A stretch of DNA of 64,000 nt from Hoeflea marina (GTDB lineage: Bacteria > Pseudomonadota > Alphaproteobacteria > Rhizobiales > Rhizobiaceae): assembly GCF_003182275.1 (NCBI RefSeq), contig NZ_QGTR01000002.1:848237-912236 (forward strand). The letters are read 5' to 3'. Both the position numbers and the translations under genes were made by a program. Of the stretch, positions 8,593 to 38,770 are shown piece after piece (positions within the stretch are counted from its first letter, which is position 1; the number at the start of each line of letters is the position of its first letter). A model generated the notes under the pieces. That model saw nothing but the letters and a program-made list of their open reading frames with translations. It was not told where the DNA came from and did not search any database.

Positions 8593-9414
8593 TCAGCTTC
8601 TTGCCGTGTTCCTCCCCGACAGGATGAAGAAGACGGTGAGAAGCAGCACGGTCAGCGCCAGCAGCGCCGTGGAGATCGCGTTGACCTCGGGCGTCACCGC
8701 GCGGCGCAACTGGCCGAGCATGTAGGTGGGCAGCGTGTCCTGGCCGGCGGACTTGACGAATTCGGTGATGATGACGTCATCGAGCGAGACGACGAAGGCG
8801 AGCATGGCGCCGGCGGCGATGCCCGGCGCCATCAGCGGCAGGGTGATGCGGCGGAAGGTTTGCCACGGCGTGGCGTAGAGATCGGCGGCAGCCGACTCCA
8901 GCGCCAGATCCATGCCTTCCATGCGTGCCCGGATCGGCAGATAGGCGAAGGGAATGCAGAAGGCGGAATGCGCCAGGATGAGGTAGCCCAGCCCCGAATA
9001 GCCGGTGGCGATCTTGATCGAGGAGAAGAAGATCAGCAGAGCCACCGCGGTGACGATCTCCGGCACCATCAGCGGCTGGTTGATCAGCATGTAGATGAGC
9101 GTCCGGCCGCGGTAGTTGCGGGCCCGCGTGGTGCCGAGCGCGGCCATCGTCGCGAGCACTGTGGAAATGCCCGAGGCCCACAGCGCGATCACCAGCGAGC
9201 GCAGCGTGGCCTCCTGGACGATCTGGTTGCCGGCGGCGACCGTGTACCACTTGGTCGAGAATCCGCGCCAAAGCGCCACTGAGTCGCCGGCATTGAAGGA
9301 GTAGATGACGATGGTGACGATCGGCGCGTAGAGCAGCACGAAACAGGTGATGGCGATGGCTGTGAAGCCGGGCAGGCGGCGAACCGAGAACGGCCGGGGG
9401 CTTGTCCTAGTCAT
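8593..9414 (-). CDS. potC: Polyamine ABC transporter permease, PotC type
   Basis: 273-residue inner-membrane permease with about six helices. The BPD/EAA loop is recognisable near AAADLYATPWQTFRRITLPLMAPGI (EAA-G-like), where the ATPase docks. The chosen start is the ATG at 9414 (MTRTSPRPF); the longer frame upstream runs into potB. The 3' end of potB overlaps this start by 8 bases, so the two are translationally coupled. It forms the membrane channel with PotB. Confidence 0.88.
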   Translation of the reverse strand: MTRTSPRPFSVRRLPGFTAIAITCFVLLYAPIVTIVIYSFNAGDSVALWRGFSTKWYTVAAGNQIVQEATLRSLVIALWASGISTVLATMAALGTTRARNYRGRTLIYMLINQPLMVPEIVTAVALLIFFSSIKIATGYSGLGYLILAHSAFCIPFAYLPIRARMEGMDLALESAAADLYATPWQTFRRITLPLMAPGIAAGAMLAFVVSLDDVIITEFVKSAGQDTLPTYMLGQLRRAVTPEVNAISTALLALTVLLLTVFFILSGRNTARS

Positions 9415-10357
9415 GGCTCGACCCCCGCGTCGACGCCCGCACATAGTAGAGCAGCGCCACCATGACGATCAGCAGCAGGAAGATCGACAGCGATGCCCCC
9501 AGCGGCCAGTTGCGGCCCTGGCCGAACTGCAGCTCGATGAAGTTGCCGATCATCATGTTCTTGCCGCCGCCGAGCACCCGAGGCGTCACATAGGCGCCGA
9601 GCGAGGGCACGAAGACGAGGATCGAGCCCGCCACGATGCCCGGCTTGACGATCGGCAGGATCACCCGGCGGAGCACCTGCAGGCGGTTGGCGTAGAGATC
9701 GTAGCCCGCCTCCACCAGCCGGAAGTCGAAGCGCTCGATGGCGGCATAGAGCGGTAGCACCATGAGCGGCAGGTAGACATAGGCCATGCCGATGAGCACG
9801 GCGGTGTCGGTGTACATGATTTGCAGCGGGCTCGCGATCACGCCGAGCTTGATCAGCCAGGTGTTGAGCAGTCCCTCGTTGCGGATCATCTCGAGGATGG
9901 CGAAGGTGCGCACCAGGAGATTGGTCCAGAACGGAATGGTGATCAGGAACAGCCAGAAGGTCCGCGCCCGCCCGGGGCGCGTGGCGATGAACCAGGCCGT
10001 GGGCAGGCCGAAGACGATGGTGATGGCTGTGGTCAGCAGCGACAGCCGCACCGAGCGCCAGAAGATCGACAGATGCGCGTCGGCGAGCCCCAGGGTGTCG
10101 TCGAAGATGTCGCGGGTGAAGAAGATCTGCACCCATGCGTCGAAGGTCGGGGTCCACTCGACGCCGCTGAAATCCCCCGGCGTCATGAAGGAATAGACCA
10201 GCACGATGATGAGCGGCCCGGATGCGCCGATCACCAGCAGCGCCAGCGCGGGCGCCGACAACAGCCAGTTGCGGCGTGTCCGCTCGCGCTCTGCCCGGCG
10301 CTCCATGACGCCGCTGTCGGAGCGGTGGGCCGTCGCGGCGGGCTTGGCGCTGGCCAT
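9407..10357 (-). CDS. potB: Polyamine ABC transporter permease, PotB type
   Basis: 316-residue inner-membrane permease. After a charged N-terminal tail (ERRAERERTRRN) it has six predicted helices and an EAA loop (VEAGYDLYANRLQVLRRVIL). The start at 10357 (MASAKPAAT) lies 3 bases after the potA stop, and the gene overlaps potC by 8 bases. Together with potA and potC this forms a standard polyamine importer. Confidence 0.88.
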   Translation of the reverse strand: MASAKPAATAHRSDSGVMERRAERERTRRNWLLSAPALALLVIGASGPLIIVLVYSFMTPGDFSGVEWTPTFDAWVQIFFTRDIFDDTLGLADAHLSIFWRSVRLSLLTTAITIVFGLPTAWFIATRPGRARTFWLFLITIPFWTNLLVRTFAILEMIRNEGLLNTWLIKLGVIASPLQIMYTDTAVLIGMAYVYLPLMVLPLYAAIERFDFRLVEAGYDLYANRLQVLRRVILPIVKPGIVAGSILVFVPSLGAYVTPRVLGGGKNMMIGNFIELQFGQGRNWPLGASLSIFLLLIVMVALLYYVRASTRGSSHD

Positions 10358-10359
10358 GG

Positions 10360-11448
10360 TCAGGCTCCCACGATGCGCAGGGCGCCAGGGGCGAAGGAGA
10401 CGCCGGCGATGGCGCCGGTCTCCAGCCCTTCCTTGCCCGACAGGCCGGAAGGGATGCGGGCCACCAGCTCTTCGCCGCTGTCGAGCGTGAGGTGGCAATG
10501 CATGTCCGTGCCGAAATAGATCAGGTTGGTGATCCTGCCGCTGAGCGAGCCGGGTGCGTCGAAGGCCCCGAGCAGCACATATTCGGGGCGCACGGCCAGT
10601 GTCACCGGCTGGCCGGCAGCGGGGCTGTCGGCAGTGTCGATTGAGAGTTCCTGTCCACCGCCGAGCGCGATCCGCGCCGGTGGTCCGGCGGCAAGCACCG
10701 TGCCGTCGAGAAAGTTGGATTCCCCGATGAAGCCGGCGACGAAACGGTTGGCCGGGCGCTCGTAGATGTCGCGCGGACTGCCGATCTGCAGGATATGACC
10801 CGCATCCATCACCGCGATCCGGTCCGACATGGTCAGCGCCTCCTCCTGGTCGTGGGTGACGAAAACAAAGGTGATGCCGGTGTCCTGCTGCATGCGCTTG
10901 AGCTCGATCTGCATCTGCTTGCGCAGCTTGAGGTCGAGCGCCGACAGCGGCTCGTCGAGCAGCAGCACCGAGGGCCGCGGCGCGAGCGCGCGGGCCAGCG
11001 CGACCCGCTGCTGCTGGCCCCCGGAGAGCTGCGCCGGCAGCCGCGCAGCCATCGCCTCCATCCGCACCAGCGCCAGCATCTCAGCCGTCGTCGCCTTGAT
11101 CTCGTCCTTGCCGCGGCCGAGCATCTCGAGCCCGAAGGCGATGTTCTGCGCCACGGTGAGATGGGGAAACAGCGCGTAGCTCTGGAACACCGTGTTGACC
11201 GGTCGGCGGAAGGGCGGTTCGGCAGTGATGTCGGTTCCGTCGAGTTCGATGGCGCCGTTGGTTGGAGTCTCGAAGCCGGCGATCATCCGCAGCAGCGTGG
11301 TCTTGCCACAGCCCGATGGGCCGAGCAGCGTGAAGAATTCGTTGCGGCGGATGTCCACGGAGACGTTGTCGAGCGCCTTGAGGCCGGTTTCGACGGGGCC
11401 GAAGATCTTGGAGACGCCGCGGATGGCGATGGCTGTTTCATGCGTCAT
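10360..11448 (-). CDS. potA: Polyamine ABC transporter ATP-binding protein
   Basis: 362-residue ATPase that powers the importer from the cytoplasmic face. Walker A GPSGCGKT is at 43-50, followed by the Q-loop (FQSYALF), signature LSGGQQQR, Walker B VLLLDEP and the switch histidine in [10 protein letters not shown]-terminal TOBE/OB domain (about 280-362, including LAVRPEYV) is as in PotA. The ATG overlaps the stop of a short upstream frame by ATGA. First certain gene of the potABCD operon. Confidence 0.92.
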
Positions 11449-36486: not shown

Positions 36487-37292
36487 GCCCCCTTGCTTGC
36501 GGACTTCAGCTGCTCGCGCAGCCACTTCTTGAAGCTCGCAGGGTTCCTTGTGCGATAGCGCGCCAATGTCAGGCCATCGCCGATCTTGATGGTAATGCCG
36601 CCCTGTTCGTTGACCCATGAGAAGGCGATCTCGTCGGTGTCGTCGTCACCCGCAAACAGGATCGTGCGGCGGCGGAACTCCTTGAACTTCATGATCCGTT
36701 CGATCGCCATCGCCTTGGATATGCCCTTCGGCTTGATTTCCAGTGCCATCTTGGCCTGCTGGATTTCGAAATCCGCGTCGCCGCCCACCAGGCTCCTGAC
36801 GAAATCGCGCACCTTGCCTTCGAGCTCCGGGTGCTGGCGGAAATGCAGCACGATGCCGAAGCTCTTGTCCTCGGCGAGAATACGCGGATCGACGGCGGCA
36901 AACTCGCGCACGGCGCACTTGATGTGCTCAAGCCGCTCGAGATCGCACTTGATTGTTGGCAACGCCTTGGCCTCGCGGCGCATCTCTGCGCCGTGGCCGC
37001 CCGAAACCGTGCCCTGGAAGTCACTGAGATAGCTGTCGATCTCGTGCAGGTTGCGCCCCGATATGACCGAGACGGCGCCGCTGGTGCGCTTGCTCAACTG
37101 ATCGAGCAGCGTCTTGTCGCGGTCGGTCACCCTGATTGCGTCTGGTGTGGGGGCGATATCGACGAATGTACCATCGAAATCGAGGAACAACGCCGTCCTT
37201 TCCGGTTCGATCCTCAGGCGCGCAAGCTCGTCCGGCGAAGTCGAGCCGGATTTGAAACCGACCAGACTGTAATAATCCAAGCGTTGTTCCAT
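36483..37292 (-). CDS. otsB: Trehalose-6-phosphate phosphatase
   Basis: 269-residue HAD-superfamily phosphatase. Motif I LFLDFDGTFVD holds the nucleophilic aspartate, then SGRNLHEI, GGHGAEM, the lysine region KPKGISKA and the acidic motif FAGDDDTDE. The start at 37292 (MEQRLDYYSL) follows GGAGAG; the 65 residues upstream in frame are not coding-like. The gene precedes otsA and overlaps it by ATGA, so the two are coupled. Confidence 0.92.
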   Translation of the reverse strand: MEQRLDYYSLVGFKSGSTSPDELARLRIEPERTALFLDFDGTFVDIAPTPDAIRVTDRDKTLLDQLSKRTSGAVSVISGRNLHEIDSYLSDFQGTVSGGHGAEMRREAKALPTIKCDLERLEHIKCAVREFAAVDPRILAEDKSFGIVLHFRQHPELEGKVRDFVRSLVGGDADFEIQQAKMALEIKPKGISKAMAIERIMKFKEFRRRTILFAGDDDTDEIAFSWVNEQGGITIKIGDGLTLARYRTRNPASFKKWLREQLKSASKGA

Positions 37293-37546
37293 GATTTGCT
37301 CTCCGGCTGTTGGAAAGCAAACCATTCTGGCGTGAAAATCGTTCCGAAAAATGGCAAAAAAAAGAATCGGTTTGGCAAACACCCGCCGCTTGAAGCCGGG
37401 CTGATCCGGCAACCACCACGCGGCGCGACACCAGGCAGCAGGCCACCGGGACCTCCGGGACGCCGAAATTGCCGGTTGCACATTCACGGATGCTCAGATA
37501 GCTTGCGCCAAGGTTCAATTCTGACCGCAACCCGTCGAGGCGACCC

Positions 37547-37642
37547 ATGATCAAGCGCGTTTATGTCAAGCCGGCTCTTACCAAGGCCACAATGACCCTC
37601 CAGGCCGTCGTCTCCGCGATGTCCGGCCTCATCGAATTATAG
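37547..37642 (+). CDS. RiPP-precursor-like short peptide, copy 1
   Basis: 31-codon gene preceded by GAGGCG. The peptide begins MIKRVYVKPALTK and ends TLQAVVSAMSGLIEL. The YxKPxLxK segment resembles the YxxPxL leader motif that lasso-peptide and other RiPP recognition elements bind; the MSG and following residues would be the core or its start. It has a close paralogue 203 bases downstream (16 of 30 residues identical), which argues that it is real. No cyclase, protease or RRE gene is adjacent. Its promoter may be TTGCAC-17-TAGCTT near 37475-37505. Confidence 0.6.
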   Translation: MIKRVYVKPALTKATMTLQAVVSAMSGLIEL

Positions 37643-37845
37643 AATAGTCTGATCGGCCTCTGCGCTTCGCTGCGATCTGCTGGGAAGACGCAGGCGGGCG
37701 AGGCCTCAAGGACCTGCAACCGGATGCAAGGGGCCGGAAATGCCACCCTTCACGACGCGTCGGCCTTATTGATTGGCAGCCGCGACGGATATAGCGTGCG
37801 TTCCACGCGACACGCTGGATGAGTCCGGATCAAGGGGAGAAGAGC

Positions 37846-37938
37846 ATGATCAGGCGCCTCTACACCAAGCCTTCGCTGTCGAAGTCCGCGGTGACACTCC
37901 AGGCGATCGTCGCCGACATGTCAGGCGTCCCGGCCTGA
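37846..37938 (+). CDS. RiPP-precursor-like short peptide, copy 2
   Basis: 30-codon gene with an excellent ribosome site (AAGGGGAGA, eight bases or so before the ATG). The peptide starts MIRRLYTKPSLSK and ends LQAIVADMSGVPA. It aligns without gaps to the copy at 37547-37642, keeping Y6, K8-P9, L11, K13, T17-L-Q-A, V22 and M25-S-G. Charged, leader-like first half and small-residue end. Could be an unmodified small regulatory peptide instead. Confidence 0.65.
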   Translation: MIRRLYTKPSLSKSAVTLQAIVADMSGVPA

Positions 37939-38116
37939 GCAGCCGCGAGCCCGACGTCGAGGCTTCGCCTGCATGCGCGGCGGGGCCTTGGCCAGTGCGC
38001 CGTCGACTGCACGTTTGCCTGCCTTCTCGGTCTTTGCCCGCTTCCGCCCGGCTGCGACCGCCCCGGCCGTTCGCATGTCGCCGTTCTGATCTCTTTCCGA
38101 TTGCCTTTCTGCCCCC

Positions 38117-38770
38117 TCAGGCCACCCCGTTGAGGTCGGGCAGAATCAGCGACGGCGACAGGTCGAGATATTCGTCGGGCATCTGCGCCCGGTTGATCCA
38201 GACCGTTCGGAAGCCGAACTTCGTCGCCCCCGCCACGTCCCAGCGGTTGGACGACTGGAAGCTCATGGCCGAAGGATACATGCGATAGCTGGTGGTCACC
38301 ATGTCGTAGACCTGCGGCGCCGTCTTGAAGGTCCTCAGGCTGTCGACCGAAAAGACATCGTCGATCACCTGGCCGAGCGCCGCATTCGATACCGCCGACT
38401 CGAGCATCGCCGGCGAGCCGTTCGACAGGATGGCGACCCTGGCGCCGCCTGCCTTGAGCGACTTGAGCACGGCGGGCACTTCCGGATAGCAGTCGAGCGA
38501 CCAGTAGGCTTCCAGCAGTTCCCCGCGCAGCGAGCGATCCGCCGACGGCACGCGCGCGAAGGCATGGTCGAGGGCTTCCTCGGTCAGCGCCCAGAAATCC
38601 TTGTAGGCGCCCATCAGCGCCCGGGTCCATGAGTATTCGAGCTGCTTGGCGCGCCAGATCTCCGACAGCAGCTGACCGTCGGGGCCGATCCGCTGGGAAT
38701 GCCGCCGCACAGCCGCATGCACGTCGAACAACGTGCCATAGGCATCAAACACATAGGCAGCATGCGGCAT
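38117..38770 (-). CDS. Haloacid dehalogenase, type II (L-2-haloacid dehalogenase family)
   Basis: 217-residue HAD hydrolase of the L-2-haloacid dehalogenase group. The nucleophile D9 is in VFDAYGTLFD, followed by ILSNGSP, the lysine in FKTAPQVY and SFQSSNRWDVAGA, all matching DehII-type enzymes. The ATG at 38770 has GGAGGAG before it; an earlier in-frame ATG is less well placed. True dehalogenase activity versus a general phosphatase-like role cannot be settled by sequence. Stands alone, next to the RiPP-like peptides. Confidence 0.85.
   Translation of the reverse strand: MPHAAYVFDAYGTLFDVHAAVRRHSQRIGPDGQLLSEIWRAKQLEYSWTRALMGAYKDFWALTEEALDHAFARVPSADRSLRGELLEAYWSLDCYPEVPAVLKSLKAGGARVAILSNGSPAMLESAVSNAALGQVIDDVFSVDSLRTFKTAPQVYDMVTTSYRMYPSAMSFQSSNRWDVAGATKFGFRTVWINRAQMPDEYLDLSPSLILPDLNGVA

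Follow-up and report, generated by a model that had tools for sequence, protein, structure and literature searches.

Two very short tandem ORFs in a 64,000-nucleotide stretch of the Hoeflea marina genome (the window, meaning this whole stretch) encode peptides with a YxKPxLxK motif that recalls RiPP leaders, and they raise the question of whether these are precursors of a modified peptide and, if so, which enzymes they would serve. Judging from sequence comparisons, we consider it probable that both genes make substrates for a lasso-like RiPP pathway that lacks a cyclase and is encoded elsewhere in the genome. The features of the pair are as follows.

37537..37540, forward strand: Shine-Dalgarno-like GAGG of gene 1, a plausible ribosome site read from the sequence.
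37547..37642, forward strand: precursor peptide gene 1, 31 aa (MIKRVYVKPALTKATMTLQAVVSAMSGLIEL), ATG start and TAG stop.
37562..37579, forward strand: YVKPAL, the YxxPxL motif of gene 1 and predicted RRE-binding site; Y, K, P, L, and K are invariant in the nine paralogues of this genome.
37616..37639, forward strand: predicted core of gene 1, AMSGLIEL, with the aligned Ser-Gly; from the paralogue alignment and a predicted cleavage site, boundary ± one residue.
37832..37839, forward strand: Shine-Dalgarno-like AAGGGGAG of gene 2, a plausible ribosome site read from the sequence.
37846..37938, forward strand: precursor peptide gene 2, 30 aa (MIRRLYTKPSLSKSAVTLQAIVADMSGVPA), ATG start and TGA stop.
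37861..37878, forward strand: YTKPSL, the YxxPxL motif of gene 2, from the paralogue alignment.
37915..37935, forward strand: predicted core of gene 2, DMSGVPA, with the aligned Ser-Gly; from the paralogue alignment and a predicted cleavage site.

The role of the YxxPxL motif in RRE binding is taken from two studies (PMC10368454, PMC13381572). A first-pass annotation had proposed that both ORFs are real genes, and their coordinates, ATG starts, and Shine-Dalgarno-like sites were confirmed; the alignment of the two peptides likewise showed all 16 invariant columns that it had listed. An alternative in-frame ATG of gene 2 at 37819 would give a product of 39 aa. On the opposite strand, the pair is flanked by genes for a trehalose phosphatase and a HAD hydrolase, and neither hints at a functional link to the peptides. 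No match to a sigma-70-type promoter or a terminator was found in 37250-38200, which says little in this bacterial group. At the position taken as -2, Val is found in both peptides. Neither matched a curated NCBIfam family, including the lasso leader families NF033521 and NF033528, which were matched at E ≤ 0.1 by 2 and 6 of 25 members of the wider peptide family (E-values only). With Pfam DUF5972 (PF19397), peptide 1 scored 15.0 bits, below the cut-off of 22.6, and peptide 2 had no match; 10 of the 25 family members reached E ≤ 0.1 (best 0.0012, again E-values only). A DUF5972 search of the genome was discarded as unspecific, with matches in 10 of 14 control genomes and 0 above the cut-off.

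A six-frame search of the genome (96.6% complete) with peptide 1 recovered peptide 2 at E = 6.2e-6, and the resemblance between the two is not chance. The same search found eight further places, namely seven intact paralogues and one decayed copy (E 3e-4 to 0.8), so that the family has nine intact copies and one decayed copy at five loci.

Locus 1, the window: the pair described above, two precursors.
Locus 2, contig C4: three intact precursors and a decayed fourth, adjoining a bluB-like gene and a phosphonate (phn) cluster (names read from translations); the decayed copy, the tenth of the family, is MKRVHSRPALSKSSGTPQTVIPGAS (7319-7432 of C4 stretch L028) and adjoins the three intact ones.
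Locus 3, contig C2 at ~424-427 kb: two precursors.
Loci 4 and 5, contig C1: a single precursor at each of two places.

All copies combine the YxKPxLxK leader with a variable tail of 7 to 11 residues, and the precursors of this genome are 30 to 33 aa long. Six positions (Y, K, P, L, K, Q) are invariant in the nine intact copies, and the YxxPxL motif is present in 9/9. A profile recovered the nine at E-values of 8e-15 to 2e-17, which are partly so by construction because the same nine built it. Per 20 leader codons, 7.25 differences fell on first, 4.89 on second, and 11.17 on third codon positions, and for the 31 of 36 pairs whose dS was usable the median dN/dS was 0.30 (window pair: dN 0.28, dS 0.94), as would be expected of translated sequence. 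Mean pairwise identity, ungapped, was 0.59 in the leader and 0.14 in the core; a leader that is kept next to a core that is free is the pattern of RiPP precursors. A further match at C10:33600 was set aside for its internal stop. Near one of the C1 precursors lies a gene for a 1509-aa leucine-rich-repeat protein with a GTPase-like part (L030 7652-12181; read from the translation).

The first-pass annotation had reported no cyclase, protease, or RRE gene in the window, and this held: genome-wide PqqD, B2, and Asn-synthetase matches all lie outside it. It had also suggested a maturation cluster elsewhere, with small regulatory peptides as the alternative, and a search for a stand-alone RRE, and a PqqD-like RRE was found on contig C3. 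Whole-genome searches with PF05402 (RRE) and PF13471 (B2) each gave one place, and the two are adjacent there. Gene order is PqqD-like RRE (105 aa), B2 leader peptidase (155 aa), HprK-like kinase (335 aa), and nucleotidyltransferase (347 aa), all on one strand and overlapping or abutting. The RRE scored 45.7 bits on PF05402 PqqD (cut-off 23.4), and its profile matched TfuB1, PqqD, and TbiB1 best in the PDB. The B2 protein scored 48.4 bits on the lasso B2 model NF033537 (cut-off 33), and a PDB search with its profile was negative; in six homologues, the Cys, His, and Asp columns that we take to be the catalytic triad are invariant. The nucleotidyltransferase scored 78.5 bits on PF14907 NTP_transf_5 (cut-off 31.2). 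By curated cut-offs the HprK-like assignment of the kinase is weak, with 24 bits against an NCBIfam HprK-related cut-off of 200 and no Pfam match. Its P-loop is invariant in six homologues, HPr kinases are its first three PDB matches (weak, E 0.002-0.005), and AlphaFold models it with confidence (mean pLDDT 89). At this cassette, a query with a lasso ABC exporter matched nothing. Since no precursor adjoins the cassette in this genome, the link between the two rests here on leader similarity and on other genomes.

In those genomes, the B2 gene tracks the peptides, and comparative genomics thus supports the idea of a maturation cluster elsewhere. Searching 60 relatives with a single peptide yielded nothing but weak matches outside the genome itself (8 genomes, E 0.9-2.6), so a nine-row profile was needed. 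Among 21 chosen genomes, B2 was over the cut-off in 12/12 precursor carriers vs 0/9 others, and PqqD in 12/12 vs 3/9; the RRE family by itself is not specific to carriers. Across 297 genomes of the family, B2 occurred in 13/14 genomes with precursors vs 12/283 others (Fisher 4e-15), at a carrier threshold of E ≤ 0.01 that was set after the list had been viewed. The one carrier lacking B2 (G133) was counted despite a partial match that is probably chance, and genomes with a best E of 0.01 to 0.5, many of them with partial matches, were not counted. Eight of the 12 B2 genomes scored as precursor-free are covered by our breakdown, which leaves out G117, G211, G227, and G311. Seven of the eight hold the cassette (G066, G125, G171, G203, G216, G263, and G316), and G106 has a lasso cyclase (locus L183). 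Precursors are present in G216 (E 0.0134) and weakly in G066 (0.46), whose below-threshold matches adjoin a cassette; the narrow profile found none in the other five. Two further cassette stretches (L130 and L131) had no precursor by motif.

A second sample came from a broader, 25-row profile run on 397 genomes of the order, which gave 16 carriers. B2 was over the cut-off in 9/9 newly found carriers vs 1/17 non-carriers (by hand, Fisher ~3e-6); the test left out five genomes already in the first (G000, G113, G194, G255, and G308) and two more (G583 and G499, E 0.006 and 0.009). The 17 were those used of 20 listed from 381 genomes without a match, and several had been in the first test; the 297-genome search had matched three of them (G107, G179, and G233) partially, at E 0.16-0.46. 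The single non-carrier with B2 (G609) had a high, canonical-type B2 score. These statistics overstate independence because peptides and genomes are related. Precursors also lie beside RRE and kinase genes in seven other genomes (G079, G190, G216, G273, G282, G301, and G251). The last of these also has a ten-precursor tandem array with the pattern RKSYEKPxLRKSxxLLQSVTAQ... on contig C49 (L062, C49:622000-641000, positions 8940-10747), with RRE and kinase genes on C13 and B2 on C46, and another genome (G678) gave 16 profile matches over several contigs.

Within the genus, precursors were found in 1 of 18 genomes, the one studied here included. The first-pass annotation had named absence from close relatives as grounds against the two genes, and they are literally absent from the 17 other species genomes; B2, however, is likewise missing from all nine of them in which it was sought, so the absence reads as gain or loss of the whole system and not as noise. 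With its patchy occurrence, the system looks like an accessory trait. The kinase alignment, run against named genomes, matched at 8 loci, two of them distant short matches; the named ones belong to a marine alphaproteobacterial MAG, Mesorhizobium sp. MAG-134, a Hyphomicrobiales MAG, Aquibium sp. ELW1220, an uncultured Rhizobiaceae, and an uncultured Rhodobacteraceae MAG. Among plasmids, a G194 peptide matched 3 Mesorhizobium records, whose best places were annotated as none, none, and hypothetical protein (from an incomplete gene table), and a peptide of the type found here matched no record.

Leader, RRE, and B2 are all of the lasso type, which would favor reading the window genes as canonical lasso precursors cyclized by an Asn-synthetase-like enzyme encoded elsewhere. 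So would the matches of 6 of the 25 family members to NCBIfam lasso_cyano at E ≤ 0.1 (best 1e-4), the Glu at core position 7 of window peptide 1 (under the predicted boundary), and an Asn-synthetase-like gene directly after one precursor in another genome (G304). We consider this reading very unlikely in view of the cyclase. Among 31 stretches of 17-21 kb with RRE and kinase (L066-L071, L102, L104-L106, L130, L131, and L164-L182), none had an Asn-synthetase-type match (four queries, E ≤ 1e-4), whereas an independent lasso locus (L183) matched the queries (51%), one lasso locus (L107) having supplied the query. One of the stretches (L180) also holds the end of a neighboring lasso-type cluster, whose cyclase would fall outside it. 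Nucleotidyltransferase and B2 were each present in 30/31, and the genome of the stretch without B2 has that gene elsewhere. The search for a lasso cyclase that the first-pass annotation had advised led only to two substantial Asn-synthetase proteins. With NF033535, the model for lasso cyclases (cut-off 525), their scores were 110.7 and 212.2, vs 781.8 for the lasso control (L107); two weak partial matches on C5 and C8 were left out of this scoring. One of the two is an N-acetylglutaminylglutamine amidotransferase (1008.6, cut-off 570.1), and the G304 protein reached 164.4 on NF033535, also below the cut-off. Ring-closing candidates are similarly sparse, with Asp or Glu at core positions 7-9 in just 17/70 cores (3/9 in this genome) and absent in window peptide 2. 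In a tree, 31 cassette RREs split from 4 canonical ones at 100/100, on a very long branch that calls for a long-branch warning; the B2 tree was uninformative, as canonical proteins were represented in it by one row, a weak match of 16 bits whose branch was very long. The likeness to lasso precursors noted at first thus stands for leader, RRE, and peptidase and fails for the cyclase.

Some of the surroundings of these genes are recorded here for their own sake. An Asn-synthetase-like gene on C2 (~102-106 kb; L119 5322-9355) belongs to an arginine-catabolism-like trio with a 5-guanidino-2-oxopentanoate decarboxylase match (over the cut-off) and a dimethylargininase match (below it); the idea that the C2 Asn-synthetase is part of an antibiotic pathway was dropped after scoring with lasso and family models. 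In four genomes, two B2 genes share a contig at a distance of ~12 to 26 kb (G194 C67, stretches L106/L107; G113 C45; G308 C33; and G255 C1), one with a high lasso-type score and the other of the cassette, and in G194 the former belongs to a lasso cluster with a cyclase and an ABC transporter. This paired layout recalls the LPP/paeninodin neighborhood in Bacilli.

The cores point to the chemistry that the kinase may perform. From 71 hand-picked peptides, obvious non-members having been left out, one without a boundary was dropped to give 70 cores, with the boundary predicted by rule ~15-16 residues after Tyr and a few rows one residue off. Ser or Thr occurred in 70/70 (shuffle mean 64.9, equaled in 0.3% of 5000 shuffles) and at core positions 2-6 in 67/70 (shuffle mean 51.4, maximum 63 of 5000, never reached). 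The dipeptide [ST]G was present in 28/70 cores (shuffle mean 16.8, never reached) and in 7/9 of this genome (shuffle mean 1.3). BsfK, aided by its RRE, phosphorylates core Ser3 (PMC10368454), which is likewise the target of LppK in a system without a cyclase (PMC13381572). An early core Ser is thus the site of related kinases, and the Ser/Thr at positions 2-6 are compatible with Ser3 phosphorylation of the LPP type.

Could the window peptides be relics, i.e., duplicated orphan copies whose expression or processing has been lost? The decay of one of ten copies, the distance of the window pair from the cassette, and Val instead of Thr at -2 would fit this. We nevertheless regard it as unlikely: the dN/dS values given above, for the 31 pairs and for the window pair itself, speak against it, as do the frames, starts, and mostly Shine-Dalgarno-like sites preserved in nine copies, and Val at -2 loses weight given that another, related kinase system is functional with Ile(-2) and that precursors with Ile/Val(-2) were identified in silico (PMC10368454). 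That the peptides are instead short regulatory or membrane-active products, their likeness to RiPP leaders being incidental, would suit their very short length and a window free of PqqD, B2, and Asn-synthetase matches, but is extremely improbable in light of their co-occurrence with B2 in two samples and their physical linkage to RRE and kinase genes in seven other genomes.

Under the preferred reading of substrates for a cyclase-free, lasso-like pathway, the stand-alone PqqD-like RRE of C3 would bind the YxKPxL leader, the HprK-like kinase would phosphorylate a core Ser or Thr (the Ser of MSG in both window peptides), and this phosphate may be decorated by the NTP_transf_5 enzyme. Cleavage after V-[T/V]-[A/S] by the lasso-type B2 cysteine peptidase would release a product of ~7 to 11 residues, which would stay linear because no macrolactam cyclase belongs to the system. 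We infer RRE binding, phosphorylation, and the cleavage site from homology; glycosylation, acylation, and a biological role are speculative. More tentatively, and with slightly less than an even chance in our estimate, this is a distinct RiPP class of Hyphomicrobiales and relatives in which one RRE/B2/HprK/nucleotidyltransferase cassette serves a genome-wide, prochlorosin-like library of ~30-residue precursors, yielding very short linear phosphopeptides that a dedicated ligase/ACP/GNAT module acylates in some genomes, including this one.

The nearest published system that we found is that of the linear polyphosphorylated peptides (LPPs; Popov et al. 2026, PMC13381572). It has in common with the present one a discrete RRE, an HprK-like kinase, an NTP transferase, no macrolactam cyclase, a YxxPx leader, and a variable core with an early Ser. 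LPPs, however, have an SpI-like signal peptidase and an MsbA-like exporter, in contrast to a lasso-type B2 and no exporter match at the cassette here; their precursors are 35 to 200 aa long with one to three per cluster, compared with many scattered precursors of 30-33 aa and cores of 7-11 aa; and they are said to be restricted to Bacillota, whereas these genes are from Hyphomicrobiales. The kinase-bearing lasso peptides (paeninodin, pseudomycoidin, and Bsf) share RRE (B1), B2, HprK-like kinase, nucleotidyltransferase, a YxxPxL leader, and T or I/V at -2, and are set apart by a cyclase (C), in most cases an exporter (D), and a ring-closing core Asp/Glu (PMC8498205, PMC10368454). Prochlorosins and synechococsins also pair many genome-scattered precursor genes with one enzyme set but use a ProcM-group lanthipeptide synthetase with other chemistry and another host (PMC10783134). 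Phospeptin is likewise a linear RiPP modified by phosphorylation (predicted here), but its producer is a maturase homologous to a lanthipeptide dehydration domain instead of an HprK-like kinase (PMC9259500). The best reading of the gene content is a variant of the linear, phosphorylated, lasso-related RiPPs that would be neither a lasso peptide nor an LPP proper, because LPPs come with larger precursors, an exporter, and a leader peptidase that resembles signal peptidases. No published description of this alphaproteobacterial variant was found in the open-licence literature.

The system bears on RRE-Finder results, in which almost 8000 proteins matched the discrete lasso RRE model and ~4000 co-occur with peptidase and cyclase (PMC7470986): it may explain part of the remaining RREs and supply their substrate. 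It suggests lasso-type leader handling without ring closure outside Bacillota, and possibly a natural combinatorial route to short phosphopeptides, testable with four genes. Precursors so small and scattered can be missed by gene callers and cluster-based mining.

An optional module accompanies some of these genes. On C2 of this genome, an AMP-dependent ligase, a GNAT, and an acyl carrier protein are encoded between two precursors (L029 6507-8843), followed on the opposite strand by a beta-ketoacyl-ACP synthase II gene, and this detached module may acylate the peptide. Selidamides offer a parallel in a GNAT enzyme near RiPP precursors, which there attaches fatty acyl groups to the side chains of lysine or (hydroxy)ornithine (PMC9505594), whereas the module here adds its own ligase and carrier protein. 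GNAT was found in 6/12 carriers vs 0/9 others, and 12 of the 31 cassette loci, including that of a Rhodobacteraceae MAG, have ligase, GNAT, and acyl carrier protein next to RRE and kinase; a formyltransferase-like gene is present in some loci.
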